Positions 4,013 to 36,242 of a stretch of DNA of 37,316 nucleotides are shown in pieces. The notes beneath the pieces were generated by a model. It was not told the DNA's origin, searched no databases, and worked only from the letters and a program-made list of their open reading frames with translations. The position numbers and the translations under genes were made by a program. This stretch comes from Saprospiraceae bacterium (GTDB taxonomy: Bacteria; Bacteroidota; Bacteroidia; Chitinophagales; Saprospiraceae). The stretch's first letter is position 1. Each line of letters begins with the position of its first letter. The stretch covers positions 1 through 37,316 of the forward strand of contig JALHRK010000020.1 of assembly GCA_022841505.1 (NCBI GenBank). The letters run 5' to 3'.

Positions 4013-4410
4013 TCATCCAGCTCCGCACCATCCTCAGCAAAAATAAGATTGACGAGGAGGGCAAAGAAGACCTGGTCTTGCAGTTCACCAACGGGGGAAC
4101 AAAGAGCATCCGGGAAATGAGAAAGGTGGAAGCCATAGCAATGATCAGGGCGCTGAACGACACGCCCGACACCTACGACGACTCCGCCAACCGAAAGCGC
4201 CGGCAGATACTGGCCTTGTGCCACGAAATGGGATGGGAAGATGATCAGGGACGAGTGGATATGACCCGCGTTAACGCTTACTGCACCACACGCGGCTACC
4301 TCAAAAAGCCCCTGAATGATTACAAACCCGGCGAGCTTCAGAAGCTGGTCAGTCAGTTCAAGACAATGCATAAAAACTATCTACGAAATGGCAACAACAC
4401 AACAGTATAA
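3994..4410 (+). CDS. GemA/gp16-like candidate (DUF1018 family?)
   Basis: A 139-residue basic, helical protein. The central part (KRRQILALCHEMGW, then a VDMTRVNAY segment and an ending rich in L/K helices around ELQKLVSQFKTM) has the pattern of the Mu gp16/GemA group. In Mu these proteins affect host gene expression and lie after gam. Position and pattern agree, but I could not align it, so the family is tentative. The ATG at 3994 is preferred over an upstream in-frame TTG (3940) because it needs less overlap with the previous gene. It overlaps the next start by 23 bases. Confidence 0.55.
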   Translation: MLPKDLIIQLRTILSKNKIDEEGKEDLVLQFTNGGTKSIREMRKVEAIAMIRALNDTPDTYDDSANRKRRQILALCHEMGWEDDQGRVDMTRVNAYCTTRGYLKKPLNDYKPGELQKLVSQFKTMHKNYLRNGNNTTV

Positions 4411-7098: not shown

Positions 7099-7128
7099 AA
7101 GTTCGCGCAGGAATGAAGCGCTGGAAGC

Positions 7129-7198
7129 GCGAAGTAGCATAACGGTAATGCGCCGGGTTCATAAGCCCGGAATGATGGGGTTCGATTCCCACTTCGCC
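7129..7198 (+). tRNA. tRNA-Met(CAT)-like, non-canonical
   Basis: A tRNA-like cloverleaf: acceptor GCGAAGT (7129-7135) pairs with ACTTCGC (7191-7197). A three-pair D stem encloses AACGGTA. A perfect five-pair anticodon stem, CCGGG (7153-7157) with CCCGG (7166-7170), encloses the anticodon CAT (7160-7162). A TTCGATT T-loop follows (7181-7187). Three things are odd: the anticodon loop has eight bases (TTCATAAG) instead of seven, the T stem has only three to four pairs, and no CCA is encoded. It could be a functional phage tRNA, a suppressor-type tRNA or a decaying gene. It lies between small protein genes on the same strand. Confidence 0.6.
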
Positions 7199-7239
7199 AC
7201 TAAGAAAAACTCAGATTATTTCATCAAACACATAGCAAC

Positions 7240-8894: not shown

Positions 8895-9202
8895 AACACA
8901 AGACTTTACCAGCCCTCAAAGGGCAGGCATTATTAGAGCTACTGATGGATGTTTGCGGCGTGCTGCAAGTGAGCTACGAGGAGGTAATGCACTCGGGTAC
9001 GCGCCTGCGGGTGCTGTCAGATACCCGAATTATCTTCATTCACCATGCTTACGATCTTGGATTCGAGAGCCGCGACATGTGTGTTTTTCTTGGCTTCAAT
9101 CATGCCAGTGTTGCATACCTAAGAGATAAGTACGACGACATAGTTGATAGCGTATTTGAGAGCAAAAAACAACTGGTCGAAAAGCATTTGAATGATGCTT
9201 GA
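8891..9202 (+). CDS. Orphan DnaA domain IV-like protein
   Basis: A 103-residue protein. Residues about 45-85 match the pattern of the C-terminal, DnaA-box-binding domain of DnaA: an arginine-led helix (TRIIFIHHAYDLGF), then SRDMCVFLGFNHASVAYLRDK. The latter corresponds to the family's G-x-x-F-G-R-D-H-S-T-V stretch, here as FLGFNHASV. There is no AAA domain, so it could bind DnaA boxes or repetitive sites without being an initiator. It lies in the middle of the early arm. Fairly confident about the fold, not about its role. Confidence 0.65.
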   Translation: MKHKTLPALKGQALLELLMDVCGVLQVSYEEVMHSGTRLRVLSDTRIIFIHHAYDLGFESRDMCVFLGFNHASVAYLRDKYDDIVDSVFESKKQLVEKHLNDA

Positions 9203-11083: not shown

Positions 11084-11155
11084 GCACATGTAACTTTCAT
11101 TTTCTATCTTCGTTCCACTCCTTATTATATCACTGAGAAAACACAACAACAGCAG

Positions 11156-11803
11156 ATGAAAAAGATTATCACAGCAAACAACGACACCCAACTGGCGGGA
11201 TGGATCACAACCCTTGAAAGCGCCGGTGTAGAGTACAAGCAGATTTTAAACTCCGAGGGCAAGCCTGGCCTCTTGCTAAATGAGGAAGACGCGGAAAACT
11301 ACCTGAATATCCGTAAACTGAGCACCGCCGAAGAGCAATTCAAAAACTTCTTTTCTCGCTTTTCACAGCAAAGACCGACAGTAGCTAAAGAGAATAAAGG
11401 ATGTATGCCAAGTTGGACTACTATTCTGGGTTTAGCGGTTGCGTTAGTCGTCCTGGGCAAGCTATCTGACTGCGGCGGAAGCGATAGCGCTTCTTATGAA
11501 AGCGAGCCAACTCCAAAAAGGGAAATGACTCTTCAGGATTCCATTGAGTTGCAATTCAGTGCGTGGGATGGCTCACACAGGGGCATGGAAAAGGCGATCA
11601 AAGCCCAAATGAAAAACCCTGATAGTTATGATCACGTGGAAACCCAATATAAAATTATTGGAGAGGGAAATGAAAACGGTGTTAGAGCGCTCTACGTAGT
11701 CACTACCTTCAGGGGAACCAATAGCTTCAATGCGGTAATTACGCAACAAGCCAAAGGCACATTTACTATAAGTGGCGACCTCCTCTCAATGGGCATAGAA
11801 TAA
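11156..11803 (+). CDS. Membrane-anchored hypothetical protein
   Basis: A 215-residue protein with three parts. A cytoplasmic N-terminal domain (about 80 residues) resembles small alpha/beta phage domains. One membrane helix follows (about residues 88-104, TTILGLAVALVVLGKL). After it comes a C-terminal domain with AIKAQMKNPDSYDHVE, then VTTFRGTNSFNA, a pattern seen in small secreted or periplasmic proteins. A TATCTTCG element about 50 bases upstream resembles a weak Bacteroidota -7 box. It is unrelated in sequence to the neighbouring BRO-N gene. Function unknown. Confidence 0.6.
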   Translation: MKKIITANNDTQLAGWITTLESAGVEYKQILNSEGKPGLLLNEEDAENYLNIRKLSTAEEQFKNFFSRFSQQRPTVAKENKGCMPSWTTILGLAVALVVLGKLSDCGGSDSASYESEPTPKREMTLQDSIELQFSAWDGSHRGMEKAIKAQMKNPDSYDHVETQYKIIGEGNENGVRALYVVTTFRGTNSFNAVITQQAKGTFTISGDLLSMGIE

Positions 11804-11820
11804 CTAAAAAATAGTACCCC

Positions 11821-11851
11821 TTGTTTTTTAAATCAAAATTCTGCAACTTTG
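11821..11851 (+). promoter_or_regulatory. Bacteroidota-type promoter with palindrome over the -7 box
   Basis: TTG (11821-11823), a 20-bp spacer, then CAACTTTG (11844-11851), one mismatch from the TAnnTTTG -7 consensus. The inverted repeat CTGCAA-CT-TTGCAG (11841-11854) covers the -7 box and could be an operator. A transcript would start near 11858 and run into the c4-like RNA. Confidence 0.6.
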
Positions 11852-11857
11852 CAGTGC

Positions 11858-11996
11858 AGAACGTAGTACATATCGGATTCCGAAAGAGAAATCCATAGAC
11901 AAGACTGAAAGACAACCCGGGCGAAGGGGTAGGCCCCCATGCTTCCTATGCTCTTCGGAGATATGGTTACGTTCTGCAAGCGCCCGGGCCTTTTTT
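11858..11996 (+). ncRNA. c4-like antisense leader RNA controlling the antirepressor
   Basis: A structured RNA just upstream of the BRO-N antirepressor. An 8-bp stem, CCCGGGCG (11916-11923) with CGCCCGGG (11981-11988), followed by TTTTTT, makes a terminator whose loop encloses further hairpins: GAAG/CTTC, GGGG/CCCC and CAT/ATG. Inside it, 11965-11978 (GGTTACGTTCTGCA) is perfectly complementary to 12021-12034, which begins at the second base of the antirepressor start codon. A second partial copy of the target lies at the 5' end: TGCAGAACGTA at 11855 and CATATC at 11869. It can pair with 11960-11978. This matches the logic of the P1/P7 c4 RNA, where antisense pairing blocks translation of ant. 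Confidence 0.7.
11981..11996 (+). terminator. Terminator arm of the c4-like RNA
   Basis: CGCCCGGG closes the stem begun at 11916 and is followed by CC and six T residues. It would end the short RNA ahead of the antirepressor and give read-through control of that gene. Confidence 0.65.
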
Positions 11997-12019
11997 AACT
12001 TTTCAAATTATAATTGTCC

Positions 12020-12661
12020 ATGCAGAACGTAACCGAAATGATCGTACCATTTGAGTACGGTTCCTACCAAATCCGATCTATTGAGATCGAAAATCAACCT
12101 TACTTTGTAGCTCAAGATGTTTGTGATGTTTTAGGTATCAGCAATGCGAGGGATGCCTTAAACAAAAGCCTGGATCCGGATGAGAAGCTGATGTCGAAAA
12201 TTTCTACATCAGGTCAGAGTCGTGAAACCTGGCTCGTAAACGAATCCGGCCTTTACACCTTAATAATGAGGAGCAACAAACCGGAGGCTAAAGCCTTCCG
12301 CAAGTGGGTCACCAGTGAGGTGCTGCCGGCGCTGCGCAAAACGGGCAGCTACTCGGCGCCTCAACATCCTTATCGGGAAGTGCTGCGGGTGGCCACACTG
12401 GCAGTGGCCATTGTGGGCAGCCAAAACAAACTGGCCGCCCGGCTGGGCATCAGTGGCGGCCACATGAGCAGTGTGTTTCATCCGGAGCAGTGGCACATGG
12501 TGAGCGCCGAAATGATGGGCCGTGTGGAGCAGGTGTGCAACCACATTGTTCAGCACGGCATCGGCTACGACCGCAAAACCGTGGATTTGCTCATGCAGAT
12601 CAAGGATACCAAGCTGCGCACCCAATTGTATGACCGTTTCAAACAAGGAGGTGTGCTATGA
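12020..12661 (+). CDS. BRO-N antirepressor with C-terminal HTH-like domain
   Basis: A 213-residue protein. Residues about 8-108 are a BRO-N domain: YFVAQDVCDVLGISNARDAL, then LVNESGLYTLIMRS and FRKWVTSEVLPALRKTG. Phage antirepressors with this domain inactivate a repressor or act as DNA-binding regulators. The C-terminal 90 residues contain a Cro/YdaS-like helix-turn-helix (NKLAARLGISGGHMSSVF). The ATG at 12020 is chosen over an in-frame TTG at 12014 because the c4-like RNA is complementary to it. The first about 280 bases are AT-richer than the rest, which hints at domain swapping. It overlaps the next gene by four bases. Confidence 0.85.
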   Translation: MQNVTEMIVPFEYGSYQIRSIEIENQPYFVAQDVCDVLGISNARDALNKSLDPDEKLMSKISTSGQSRETWLVNESGLYTLIMRSNKPEAKAFRKWVTSEVLPALRKTGSYSAPQHPYREVLRVATLAVAIVGSQNKLAARLGISGGHMSSVFHPEQWHMVSAEMMGRVEQVCNHIVQHGIGYDRKTVDLLMQIKDTKLRTQLYDRFKQGGVL

Positions 12662-12873
12662 TTACCCGAATCAGTGAAACCCAGGTGCAGCTCACCATCA
12701 CGCTCAGCGTGGAAGACGTGGCCGGGCTGCCACGCCATTTTCACGCCGTGCTGAAAGACACGATGACCGGCGATATTAGCCCCGCAGGCCGCTGCGGCAT
12801 CGTATACATGCTCGATATATTAGACGAAGCGCTGCCATCGGAAGCGCAGATGGAGCAACTACTACAAGCGTAA
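12658..12873 (+). CDS. Small protein after the antirepressor
   Basis: A 71-residue acidic soluble protein, translationally coupled to the antirepressor (ATGATT overlaps its stop). No family is recognised. In P1-like systems a small partner (icd) accompanies the antirepressor, but icd lies upstream of ant, so no equivalence is claimed. It is the last gene of the plus-strand left arm. Confidence 0.55.
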   Translation: MITRISETQVQLTITLSVEDVAGLPRHFHAVLKDTMTGDISPAGRCGIVYMLDILDEALPSEAQMEQLLQA

Positions 12874-12879
12874 AATGAA

Positions 12880-12917
12880 AGAAGCCCGGCGCCATCGCAC
12901 CGGGCTTCTCTGTTTTT
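12880..12917. terminator. Bidirectional terminator between convergent operons
   Basis: A perfect 10-bp stem (AGAAGCCCGG pairing with CCGGGCTTCT) with a 10-base loop, followed by TCTGTTTTT on the plus strand. The minus strand also ends in T-rich sequence. It sits between the end of the left arm (12873) and the end of the minus-strand operon (12916). Confidence 0.8.
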
Positions 12918-13236
12918 AAAGGTATTTCACCCAGGCATACCAGCGCCGCCCGGCGCGATACTCCGCGTTCTGATCATTCTCAAAAGCTTCCCGCTCGAAA
13001 GAGATGTTCCGATAGGCAATATCCCAGTTGCCCCATTCAATTCGCCTGATCAGGAACTCAATGAAGTACCAGGCTAAGAAAGGAATCCACAGCATTTCCG
13101 CCTGTTGCCGCAGGTGAATCCGCTCGTGGTTGTCCTGGATGGCCGTGAGTGTGCGGCCTCGTTTCACCAGGATGACGAAAAACAGCGCTACGCCAATGTA
13201 GCGGCTTCTTGGTGGAATAACATGCAAATAGATCAT
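12916..13236 (-). CDS. Membrane protein with HERIH motif (zinc-peptidase-like)
   Basis: A 106-residue protein with a hydrophobic segment near the N-terminus (YIGVALFFVILV) and a second after the motif (WIPFLAWYFIEFLI). HERIHLRQQ fits the HExxH zinc-binding signature and resembles small M48/M56-type membrane proteins common in Bacteroidota. A C-terminal AYRNISFEREAF segment could supply the third ligand. The start overlaps the preceding stop (ATGA). Peptidase activity and a role in lysis or maturation are inference. It is the last gene of the minus-strand operon. Confidence 0.6.
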   Translation of the reverse strand: MIYLHVIPPRSRYIGVALFFVILVKRGRTLTAIQDNHERIHLRQQAEMLWIPFLAWYFIEFLIRRIEWGNWDIAYRNISFEREAFENDQNAEYRAGRRWYAWVKYL

Positions 13237-16257: not shown

Positions 16258-18783
16258 TTACTTTTTGAAGATCAGCAATCCCGCGCGGAGCAGATCCGCA
16301 GCGGTGTCAATGAGCGAGATCCCGACAATCTCCTCACGTGAAGCGAGGTTGAAGGCCACGGTGAGCAGCACAGATTTGCCCTGGAAGAACTTGAAGTGCT
16401 GCCGCGTGTAGACGGCGCCTTCGCGCAGCCACACTTCGTCCGGAGCATTCAACAGCTCTTCAATGAGTGTAATCAGGTTGCCGCTTCCGCGTGTGGTGAG
16501 GTCATCGAGCAGGTTTTTAGCCATTTCAACGGGACGTGAACGGTAGTCGGTCATCCTGATTTTTTCCGGATCGTTCAGGTCGTTTTTGCCTACCTGGCCG
16601 CTCCACCATTTTTCGGCCTGCTTTGCTGTGGTGGTTTTGGTGGTCAGTTTTGGCAGGCTCTTCATGGCGTTGTGACTCACCAGGTCGGTGTAGCTTTTCC
16701 AACTCAGGTCGTTGGGCTGGAAGCTTTGCACGTATTCGGCGTTGCGCGCAAACACCTGGCCGGTGTCGGCATAGTTGATGTCGAATCCGCGTTTCACCAT
16801 GCGGTCCCAATCTTCGCCCATCAGCGGCGTCACGTCGGTGAGTTTGCTCACGGTCTTGCCGTCGCGCTCGCCGCGCGCAATGCCCTCGCAGCGGCAACCG
16901 AATTCGTTTGGTGGATAGAGTTTGGCCGCTTCCGGGTCGTCTGTCGCAAACAGGCGGCCATCGAGCGCCGCGTGTGAATCTCTCACGCGATCGTCGCCTA
17001 CGGTTTGGTACTCCCAGTAAGGTAACAACTCCGCGTCGGCCTTCAGGCGCATCCAGCGCGCTGCTGATTGTGCGGCGGCCACGGCGTGGTTGTATTCCGC
17101 CCGCATCCAGTTCACGTTGTAGTTCTTCAGCAGTGGCTCGGCTTGCGTCTTGAAGTCGCTGAAGCTTTTGGCCTGGTTCTTCAGCTCGTTGAGTTGCTGC
17201 ACCATAGCCAGGTCTTTGGCGGCGCTGAAGCGGGCGATGTTGCTCTCCAGCATGGTTTTCACCAGGTAGTCCGGTGTGTTGAAATCCACGCTGCCGGTCG
17301 GGAAACCATCATCTACGCCGTTGGTGAGCTGCGCCATCAGGGCTTTGAAGTGCTTGCGGTTCACCTTGCCGGTGGTGAGGCGCTCGGTCCATATCTGTTC
17401 CAGGAGTTCCTGCTCCGTGGCGGTAATGGCGCCGTCTTCTAATGCCAGTTGAATGTCTTCCGTCTGCCGGAACTTAGGCAGGCTTAGCTTTTTTTTTTCC
17501 ACCTTGGCCGGATCCGGTTGCTTGCTGATGTCGGGTTGCTGCGTACGGGCTGCCGGGTTGTCCTTGATGTCGTCGCCACTGACCGGCGCCGGAATGCCAA
17601 ACATCTCGTAGATGTACGACATCGGGATGTCGGCAATGCTTTGCAGCTTCACGAGCAGGTCGGCCATGGCCACTTTGCTCAGGCGCTCGTGATCGTCGTA
17701 CATGAACTTTCCTTCAGCTACCGGGTAGCCGTGCATTTCCATGATAGGCTTCAGCTTCGCGTTCAGCACAGCGAGTACCATCAGGCGGTAGCCCATGACG
17801 GCCTCGTCTTCAGCTTTCTGATGGGTTTCGGACTGGCTCAGCGAGCTGCCGGCCTCCGTTGTCATGGTCTGAAGCAGGAAGGCTTTGCTGATTTCCCCAT
17901 TATGAAAGGAAGCGTTGGTCTGAAACGCTTCGCTGTTGCCGGCCTTGGCGCTGTCGTGCAGCTTGAAGGTGGATCCTGCCGGAATGGCGATGCCGGCGTT
18001 GCCGCCCTGGCCATCGAGGGCTTTTAGGGCTTCAGCTCGCTGCCCTGGAATATTGGGATCGTAGGCAATTTCGCGGATTGGCATTCCGTACACTTCCAGG
18101 AACTCCGACCAGGTGGCCACTCCGTAGCGCTTCAGCAGCACGTTTTGGCTAACGATATTGAGCAAGCCCAGGTCTGTCTTTTTGCCAACCTCCAGCAGGA
18201 AGTAGTTGTAAGGCTTTTCCCGGAACTTGATGGCGTTACTTTCATCGCCCGCCCTGGGAAGGATGTCGCCGTACTCCGGACGCACGTTGGCCCGGTGAAT
18301 CAGTTCGGCGCCTTCCATCGACGCCGGGTCGTAATTCTTCTGAAGGAAGTTGAGCTGAAGCAGGCTGTGGCCGTACCACTTTGCCTCTACAATTCCCTTG
18401 ACGATCTCTGCAAAAAATGGCTCAGCAGCCAGGGCTGTGACGATCTCGTCTTTTTTGCCGTTCTTGTCGTAGAAGATGATTGGGTTGTTGGTGCAGCGCA
18501 GGCGGATCCGCTCCATAACGCTAAACAGGTGCGCATCGAGCAGCACCTCATTGTATACTTCATAGAGCATTCGCCGATCGGGCCGGGTTGCGCTTTCAGC
18601 AATGCGCAGTCCGGAGCGCCACTTGCCGATGTCCGGAGCGTTGCGAAACAGCACGATTTTTTCAACCGTTACAGCCTTGCCGCCACCGGTGACGAGCTGC
18701 TCTTCAGTAGCCGGTTTTGTGGCTGCGGCCAACTGGATCTGACTATCGTCAAAAACAAACAAATTCTTTATTCCCTTCCACAT
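16258..18783 (-). CDS. Portal (DUF935/Mu gp29-like) fused to MuF-like head protein and a nuclease-like C-terminus
   Basis: An 841-residue fusion. Residues 1 to about 420 match the Mu gp29-type portal, with VLLDAHLFSVMERIRLR, YGMPIREIAYDPN and FLLQTMTTEAGSSLSQSETH motifs. Residues about 440-640 match Mu gpF/SPP1 gp7 head proteins, with YWEYQTVGDDRVRDSHAALDG and a PPNEFGCRC metal-binding ending. The last about 95 residues (LIEELLNAPDEVWL, then HFKFFQGKSVLLTVAF) look like the nuclease-fold domains (PBECR-type) often attached to MuF proteins. In Mu the portal and F genes are separate. It follows gp36 with a 138-base gap. Confidence 0.85.
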   Translation of the reverse strand: MWKGIKNLFVFDDSQIQLAAATKPATEEQLVTGGGKAVTVEKIVLFRNAPDIGKWRSGLRIAESATRPDRRMLYEVYNEVLLDAHLFSVMERIRLRCTNNPIIFYDKNGKKDEIVTALAAEPFFAEIVKGIVEAKWYGHSLLQLNFLQKNYDPASMEGAELIHRANVRPEYGDILPRAGDESNAIKFREKPYNYFLLEVGKKTDLGLLNIVSQNVLLKRYGVATWSEFLEVYGMPIREIAYDPNIPGQRAEALKALDGQGGNAGIAIPAGSTFKLHDSAKAGNSEAFQTNASFHNGEISKAFLLQTMTTEAGSSLSQSETHQKAEDEAVMGYRLMVLAVLNAKLKPIMEMHGYPVAEGKFMYDDHERLSKVAMADLLVKLQSIADIPMSYIYEMFGIPAPVSGDDIKDNPAARTQQPDISKQPDPAKVEKKKLSLPKFRQTEDIQLALEDGAITATEQELLEQIWTERLTTGKVNRKHFKALMAQLTNGVDDGFPTGSVDFNTPDYLVKTMLESNIARFSAAKDLAMVQQLNELKNQAKSFSDFKTQAEPLLKNYNVNWMRAEYNHAVAAAQSAARWMRLKADAELLPYWEYQTVGDDRVRDSHAALDGRLFATDDPEAAKLYPPNEFGCRCEGIARGERDGKTVSKLTDVTPLMGEDWDRMVKRGFDINYADTGQVFARNAEYVQSFQPNDLSWKSYTDLVSHNAMKSLPKLTTKTTTAKQAEKWWSGQVGKNDLNDPEKIRMTDYRSRPVEMAKNLLDDLTTRGSGNLITLIEELLNAPDEVWLREGAVYTRQHFKFFQGKSVLLTVAFNLASREEIVGISLIDTAADLLRAGLLIFKK

Positions 18784-36190: not shown

Positions 36191-36242
36191 AAAAAGTGCT
36201 TAAACAGGCTGAAAAAAAGTTTGATTTTAAGCACTTTTTTTT
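36191..36242 (+). terminator. Strong intrinsic terminator of the tail operon
   Basis: A perfect 14-bp stem (AAAAAGTGCTTAAA pairing with TTTAAGCACTTTTT) with a 21-base loop and an extended T-run. The symmetric A/T ends mean it can work in both directions. It ends the rightward head/tail operon. Confidence 0.85.

Follow-up and report, generated by a model that had tools for sequence, protein, structure and literature searches.

What controls the antirepressor gene of a Mu-like phage, and whether the DNA in front of it is read into an antisense RNA acting on it, is the question raised by contig JALHRK010000020.1 of a Saprospiraceae bacterium (phylum Bacteroidota; assembly GCA_022841505.1). The whole stretch of 37,316 nucleotides (nt), one complete contig of the genome, was analysed and is called here the window. 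Matches to Portal_Mu, Phage_Mu_F, Mu-like_Pro, a transposase and a transposition protein identified the phage as Mu-like, and the gene at 12020 to 12661 (+ strand, as are all leader features below) matched Pfam Bro-N (97.4 bits) and the PHROG family anti-repressor Ant (1.4e-48); both assignments had been proposed in an earlier note made from the letters alone. The gene encodes 213 amino acids from the ATG at 12020, a TTG start at 12014 being also open, and the named relatives nearest to the window are Bacteroidales. Our analyses make it probable that its leader is an antisense switch of the C4 type, in which a short RNA would block translation of the antirepressor (ant) in trans and a 5' copy of the ant start would serve as second pairing partner.

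The leader contains three related segments. The antisense segment (11965 to 11978, GGTTACGTTCTGCA) is the exact reverse complement, over 14 of 14 bases as the earlier note had it, of a target at 12021 to 12034 that covers the start codon and codons 2-5 of the antirepressor. The two arms are 42 nt apart, and inverted pairs of 14 nt separated by less than 150 nt occurred in three places of the window, the other two at 36191 and 37224. The third segment is a 5' copy of the ant start (11855 to 11874), of which 11855-11865 directly repeats the 11 nt at 12021-12031. Positions 11855-11867 and 11869-11874 can pair with 11960-11978, giving 13 base pairs (bp) with 11966-11978, two wobble pairs included, and, past one bulged A, 6 bp between 11869-11874 and 11960-11965. 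The partial copy had been rightly recognised, and the 11+6 bp assigned to its pairing were slightly short. A GC-rich closing stem (P1 stem), with CCCGGGCG as 5' arm (11916 to 11923, identical in the relative L002 described below) and CGCCCGGG as 3' arm (11981 to 11988), is followed by six T (11991 to 11996), so that by its sequence the leader is terminator-ended at 11981 to 11996, as claimed.

A likely promoter was read at 11821 to 11851, with TTG at 11821-11823, a spacer of 20 nt and CAACTTTG at 11844-11851. The consensus of the Bacteroidota promoter element is TAnnTTTG, and CAACTTTG is near to it, with CA replacing TA in the window and L002 as compared with the strict form T[AG]nnTTTG. The 5' copy starts 3 nt past this element, and the whole looks like a putative short terminated RNA before the antirepressor, its transcription probably starting near 11855. 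Two hairpins within the closing stem are candidates read from the sequence, P2 (GGGG(TAGG)CCCC, 11926 to 11937) and P3 (TTCG loop, 11945 to 11966, the same in L002), although the minimum free energy (MFE) fold chooses otherwise for both. When up to three mismatches were allowed, the 14-nt target had four sites in the window, namely three leader parts and 1941-1954 (2 mismatches), inside the transposition-protein gene; because four sites fit the chance expectation (mean 3.10), no further antisense target in the window is claimed.

The pairing was compared with that of L002, an IMG/VR contig that shares 93.6% identity with the window along a single 7-kb stretch (L-numbers are labels of the compared loci, which are antirepressor loci and related RNA loci). 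The two leaders differ at 25 of 213 aligned sites. Within the target, three of the 14 sites are changed (12029, 12030 and 12031), and the facing antisense positions 11970, 11969 and 11968 are changed to match, which is the co-variation that the earlier note had proposed to look for. The rough chance of such exact compensation is about 1.5e-5, assuming independent sites and the leader's own rate. The 5' copy has five changed sites and keeps its pairing as 14 bp, a bulge and 5 bp, with three G-U pairs, and both arms of the P1 stem are unaltered. In addition, the target changes alter residue 4 of the antirepressor from V to T; therefore, it is the pairing, not the peptide, that seems to be conserved. 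The G-U pairs in the 5'-copy helix of L002 fit an RNA better than a DNA site. Over the leader and the BRO-N domain (11800 to 12300) the window and L002 diverge by 8-30% per 100 bases, against 0-4% at 11500 to 11800 and 0-5% at 12300 to 12900 in the flanks. This patch suggests that leader and BRO-N domain form an exchangeable cassette of specificity or immunity. It must be noted that the patch is not unique, because other stretches diverge equally (7-15% at 11100 to 11500, up to 14% near 13000 and up to 32% near 9000).

The arrangement was also sought in other antirepressor loci by a three-part test, which required the leader to contain a direct copy of a k-mer of the start region and, downstream of it, the reverse complement of that k-mer, with 3930 mismatched pairs as control. 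From 168 loci, 158 had 180 nt of leader (L014, L044, L054, L090, L137, L153, L185, L205, L207 and L208 were dropped as too short) and 131 were kept after removal of near-duplicates. Excluded by hand were L034, L045 and L046 (no leader, the match lying at the locus end), L084 (partial match), L206 (stops inside) and L123, L124, L086, L088 and L203, which repeat L002, L004 and the window; L001, L211 and L212, from DNA or neighbour-gene searches, are repeat copies too, L211 being the contig of L002. With k of at least 8, the order start copy, antisense, start was found in 14 of the 131 leaders against 0.37 expected (11 of the 3930 mismatched pairs), and with k of at least 9 in 8 of 131 against none of 3930. 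The positions were similar in 12 of the 14 passing leaders, with the copy at -155 to -177 and the antisense at -36 to -64, the exceptions being L015 and L162. The latter proved to be an Rfam C4 RNA (67.1 bits) and served as an unplanned positive control.

The set included 27 titled genome-contig loci, 17 from Bacteroidota and 10 from other phyla, and none of these 10 showed the layout at k of at least 8. The leader of the viral contig L004 is the same as that of L050, a Mariniphaga locus. Left uncounted were L054 (layout seen by eye, short leader) and L010, L049, L057, L062, L063, L066 and L079, alike by eye or by model, yet below k=8. A scan for exact complements alone (k of at least 10) was weaker than the three-part test, with 12 of 131 leaders against 1.3% of mismatched pairs, and some of its matches (e.g., L062 and L089) were taken as chance, being AT-rich or distant. 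On these sequence comparisons, the window leader is part of a wider set of C4-like leaders, mostly from Bacteroidota where named and partly covered by Rfam.

For the architecture of this set, 19 leaders were laid out as duplexes and 16 were folded, all chosen by hand. In 12 of the 19, the strict T[AG]nnTTTG preceded the 5' copy, with a gap to the helix of 4-5 bases in six, of 10-12 in three and none (one base of overlap) in three; it was not found in the remaining seven, the window and L002 included. All 19 admitted a candidate closing stem enclosing the antisense (drawn without a shuffled control), and by eye a U-tract follows it in 12, the exceptions being L052, L132, L160, L195, L003, L008 and L162. 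The duplex-layout scores likewise had no shuffled control and a longer stretch had been offered for the 5' copy than for the target; the helix comparison was repeated free of this bias in the 14 leaders passing k of at least 8, each core being extended without gaps. Of the two helices, that of the 5' copy was the longer in 10 of them (15 against 10 in L004; 16 against 8 in L052) and the shorter in four, the window (13 against 15), L160, L015 and L162. Model R1, built from 11 other leaders and searched in 87 sources excluding L123-L212, showed covariation of the closing stem, both partners being changed in one or more sequences for 9 of its 15 predicted pairs. Model R2, from 10 other leaders, gave no consensus pairs and was dropped.

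As two direct copies plus an inverted one, the repeats could also represent operator half-sites in a DNA-level element for repressor binding, or be chance repeats, with no RNA function. We regard this as extremely improbable, given that the order copy, antisense, start recurs with mostly different sequences, that the closing stem covaries in 11 other leaders, that wobble pairs occur in the 5'-copy helix of both the window and L002, and that six T follow the stem.

The C4-type switch can be compared directly with phage P1, in which the annotated order of parts (a1/b1, c4, a2/b2, icd, ant) is the same as in the window. The P1/P7 arrangement put forward in the earlier note gains support from this order, from the pairing kept in L002 and from the recurrence of the three-part leader, far above chance, among distant antirepressors. 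Like P1/P7 C4 (RF01695, with the a1/b1 targets in RF03163), the window has a likely promoter, a target copy, a stem-closed antisense body, the real target and an antirepressor operon; the leader lies just upstream of the antirepressor gene in the same orientation and carries, besides an antisense against the start region, another copy of the target close to the putative transcript start. According to the available text of a published account (PMC12197685), the c4 RNA of P1/P7 blocks ant translation, underlies heteroimmunity and is tabulated as trans-acting; similarly, the pairing sequence differs between the close phages window and L002. There are also differences. Two targets of 7 and 8 nt are annotated for P1 c4, and the C4 antisense is split into a' and b', whereas the window has one continuous antisense of 14 nt beside the 3' arm of the P1 stem. 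The window target lies on the antirepressor's own start codon, that of P1 upstream of icd, and the stem of the window is followed by a U-tract, which P1 c4 lacks. As regards the three-way junction of C4, with its long closing stem, two hairpins and exposed antisense, the closing stem is clear in the window and kept in L002, but the inner hairpins are only the candidates P2 and P3, read by eye and not chosen by the MFE fold. The sar RNA of phage P22 is transcribed from the opposite strand and is not a duplicated-target leader. It is likewise described as an antisense that interferes with antirepressor translation in the available part of PMC12197685, and a table of PMC2864571 lists C4 under Proteobacteria and phages. 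No literature on such leaders in Bacteroidota antirepressors was found, most subscription papers lying outside the search.

In the Rfam searches, made with the window and with partly overlapping sets of 20, 11 and 13 loci, phage P1 was the positive control and gave C4 at 68.8 bits and c4-a1b1 at 51.0 bits. The family c4-2 (RF02944, in clan CL00128 together with C4), reportedly described in a 2017 paper, occupied the same place in other antirepressor leaders. It was above its cut-off of 41 in L036 (58.0), L066 (43.9) and L081 (53.6), and below it in L040 (40.2), L008 (36.0), L132 (33.5), L052 (28.8), L195 (25.9) and L051 (24.8); all of these leaders except L066 are laid out with 5' copy and target. 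As c4-2 matches two Bacteroidota loci, L066 and L081, above cut-off, and also genomes of the window's phylum, the leader has precedents, whereas the earlier note knew of no example in a Bacteroidota Mu-like phage. Neither c4-2 nor C4 matched leaders L002, L003, L004, L007, L010 and L054 at E of up to 5, or L160, L136, L004, L087, L089 and L090 at E of up to 1. The inner stem GGUG/CACACC seen in the R1 leaders is absent from the window and L002, neither of which has a c4-2 match. The window RNA, although C4-like in its proposed action, cannot be filed as C4 or as c4-2. The kind is already known, and Rfam does not recognise this variant. What is new is that the layout recurs, that the target is duplicated in a 5' copy which often forms the longer helix, and that leader and BRO-N domain may form a cassette.

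Among 296 genomes of the window's phylum, c4-2 was present in eight, seven of them above the cut-off and all seven of one genus. These seven carry 3-6 copies each (loci L092-L121, all but L099 from that genus), and an eighth genome of the genus has none. The RNAs lie upstream of a protein of 77 amino acids, which in the loci where it was read (L092, L093, L094 and L100) is no antirepressor, and 18 of the 30 loci show the layout copy, antisense, target at k of at least 7, against 47 of 870 mismatched pairs. This looks like C4-like control applied, outside the context of antirepressors, to a multi-copy gene family.

From the parts, their complementarity and recurrence, the coordinated change seen in one phage pair and the P1 order, we infer a course of events of which transcription, trimming, action in trans, sign and the role of the 5' copy are all proposals. 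The promoter just before 11855 would give a short RNA of about 140 nt ending at the terminator (11981-11996), and some transcripts would read on through the antirepressor. Either this short RNA as it is, or a body trimmed back to near the P1 stem, would expose 11965-11978, which would pair in trans with the ant start on the read-through mRNA and block ribosome entry; the antirepressor would be kept off in the lysogen and immunity maintained. The c4 of P1 is released from its precursor by RNase P. In a newly infected cell free of the RNA, the 5' copy of a fresh transcript could capture the antisense before the real start is made, so that the first mRNAs would be translatable. In a lysogen, the short RNA of the resident prophage, bound to the 5' copy, would favour both terminator and antisense and reinforce repression; this second layer is suggested because the 5'-copy helix and the terminator stem cross and would either compete or form a pseudoknot.

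Folds, which were computed without pseudoknots, decide on no single mechanism; they are compatible with a trans RNA that trimming, the terminator stem or a further molecule releases from its 5' copy. The antisense of the window is predicted to pair with the ant start in the read-through RNA (P 0.99) and with the 5' copy in the short RNA (P 0.90). These two folds, together with the crossing of the 5'-copy helix and the terminator stem, are what a cis-acting attenuator would show, in which the antisense of each transcript chooses between the 5' copy, with read-through, and either a freed terminator or a clamped start, and no RNA acts in trans. We consider this unlikely. Pairing with the start in cis is at most 0.11 in 14 of the 16 folded leaders, the exceptions being the window and L002, and therefore the clamp is not general; moreover, the antisense lies inside a stem-closed body as in C4 and c4-2, and c4 of P1/P7 is listed as trans-acting in the accessible part of PMC12197685. 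Pairing with the 5' copy in the short RNA was at least 0.72 in eight of the 16 leaders and at most 0.42 in the other eight, and without the first 38 nt the antisense was unpaired with probabilities from 0.26 to 0.95 across the 16.

The sign of the regulation is taken as repression by analogy with P1/P7. IsrK of the Gifsy-1 prophage, to which the window is likened by outline only, is a case of activation by an RNA with a similar outline: as far as the available text goes, one promoter yields a terminated small RNA and a read-through antirepressor mRNA, and IsrK is reported as activator (PMC4825925). On that model, the terminated RNA would pair in trans with its own read-through mRNA, and its 5' copy would take the antisense off the start and turn translation on. 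The start clamp predicted in cis in the window would need such relief, and Rfam isrK has a weak match over the a1/b1 region of phage P1 (35.1 bits, below the cut-off of 50). We nevertheless judge activation very unlikely, as the antisense covers the start codon and the P1/P7 parallel points to repression, and as 14 of the 16 leaders have no predicted clamp in cis.

Several points weigh against the C4-type antisense switch that we prefer. At gathering score neither Rfam C4, the check proposed in the earlier note, nor c4-2 matched the window, and at E of up to 10 neither matched 11780-12100; model R1 had no match in the window at E of up to 1, its best + strand score being 3.1 bits with filters off. 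As many as 117 of the 131 leaders fail at k of at least 8, and only four of the 17 Bacteroidota genome-contig leaders pass (L051, L052, L056 and L081). Within the window's own lineage the coordinated change rests on one pair, L002 being the sole close relative found: of two neighbour-gene scans of viral contigs one gave no relative and the other only the L002 contig, as did a scan with a 23-base pattern, 198 genomes of the order gave only the window's own, and blastn of the leader against phage records gave no match. That change may have come by recombination or a cassette swap instead of stepwise mutation. Finally, the predicted unprocessed short RNA of the window hides the antisense in the 5'-copy helix, with the P of 0.90 given above, and for a body that lacks the first 38 nt the probability of an unpaired antisense is only 0.53.

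A broader reading is tentatively offered. C4-like leaders could be numerous in Bacteroidota phages and for the most part unrecognised, their transcript opening with a decoy of the antirepressor start whose helix with the antisense is often longer than that of the true target; the result would be a self-timed double switch, of transcription attenuation and translation block, in which a freely re-writable pairing address and the BRO-N domain travel as an exchangeable immunity cassette. We hold it to be possible rather than probable, and rate it lower because the window is itself one of the four leaders out of 14 with the longer target helix. If the switch itself is real, it would give a sequence rule for immunity groups, phages with a shared address cross-repressing each other at this step and those with different addresses not. 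To our knowledge, the role of the duplicated a1/b1 target in P1 is unsettled, and it would become open to comparative tests because the duplicated target recurs across distant phages. How Bacteroidota phages control lysogeny is little known. The available text of PMC12135933 says this for intestinal temperate phages and reports the identity of the repressor in one transposable Bacteroides phage; its main text, to the extent available, is without the word antirepressor.

Some minor observations were made at the same loci. L004 has a second C4-like body downstream of its antirepressor (4016-4113, equal to L050 7016-7113; R1 35.4 bits), ahead of a short open frame. Inspection by eye showed extended pairing between the upstream part of this body and its antisense, but no complement of a start site. 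Rfam RT-17 RNA matched near the antirepressors of L052 (144-226, 40.6 bits) and L057 (3790-3881, 57.9 bits), with a cut-off of 40.4. Elsewhere in the window, positions 7128-7200 hold a tRNA-like gene (Rfam tRNA, 43.3 bits), whose type ARAGORN left undetermined, with a four-base anticodon 'cata', and positions 16258-18783 encode a portal/Mu F fusion protein with a C-terminal PBECR2 nuclease-like domain (34.0 bits, cut-off 27.1).
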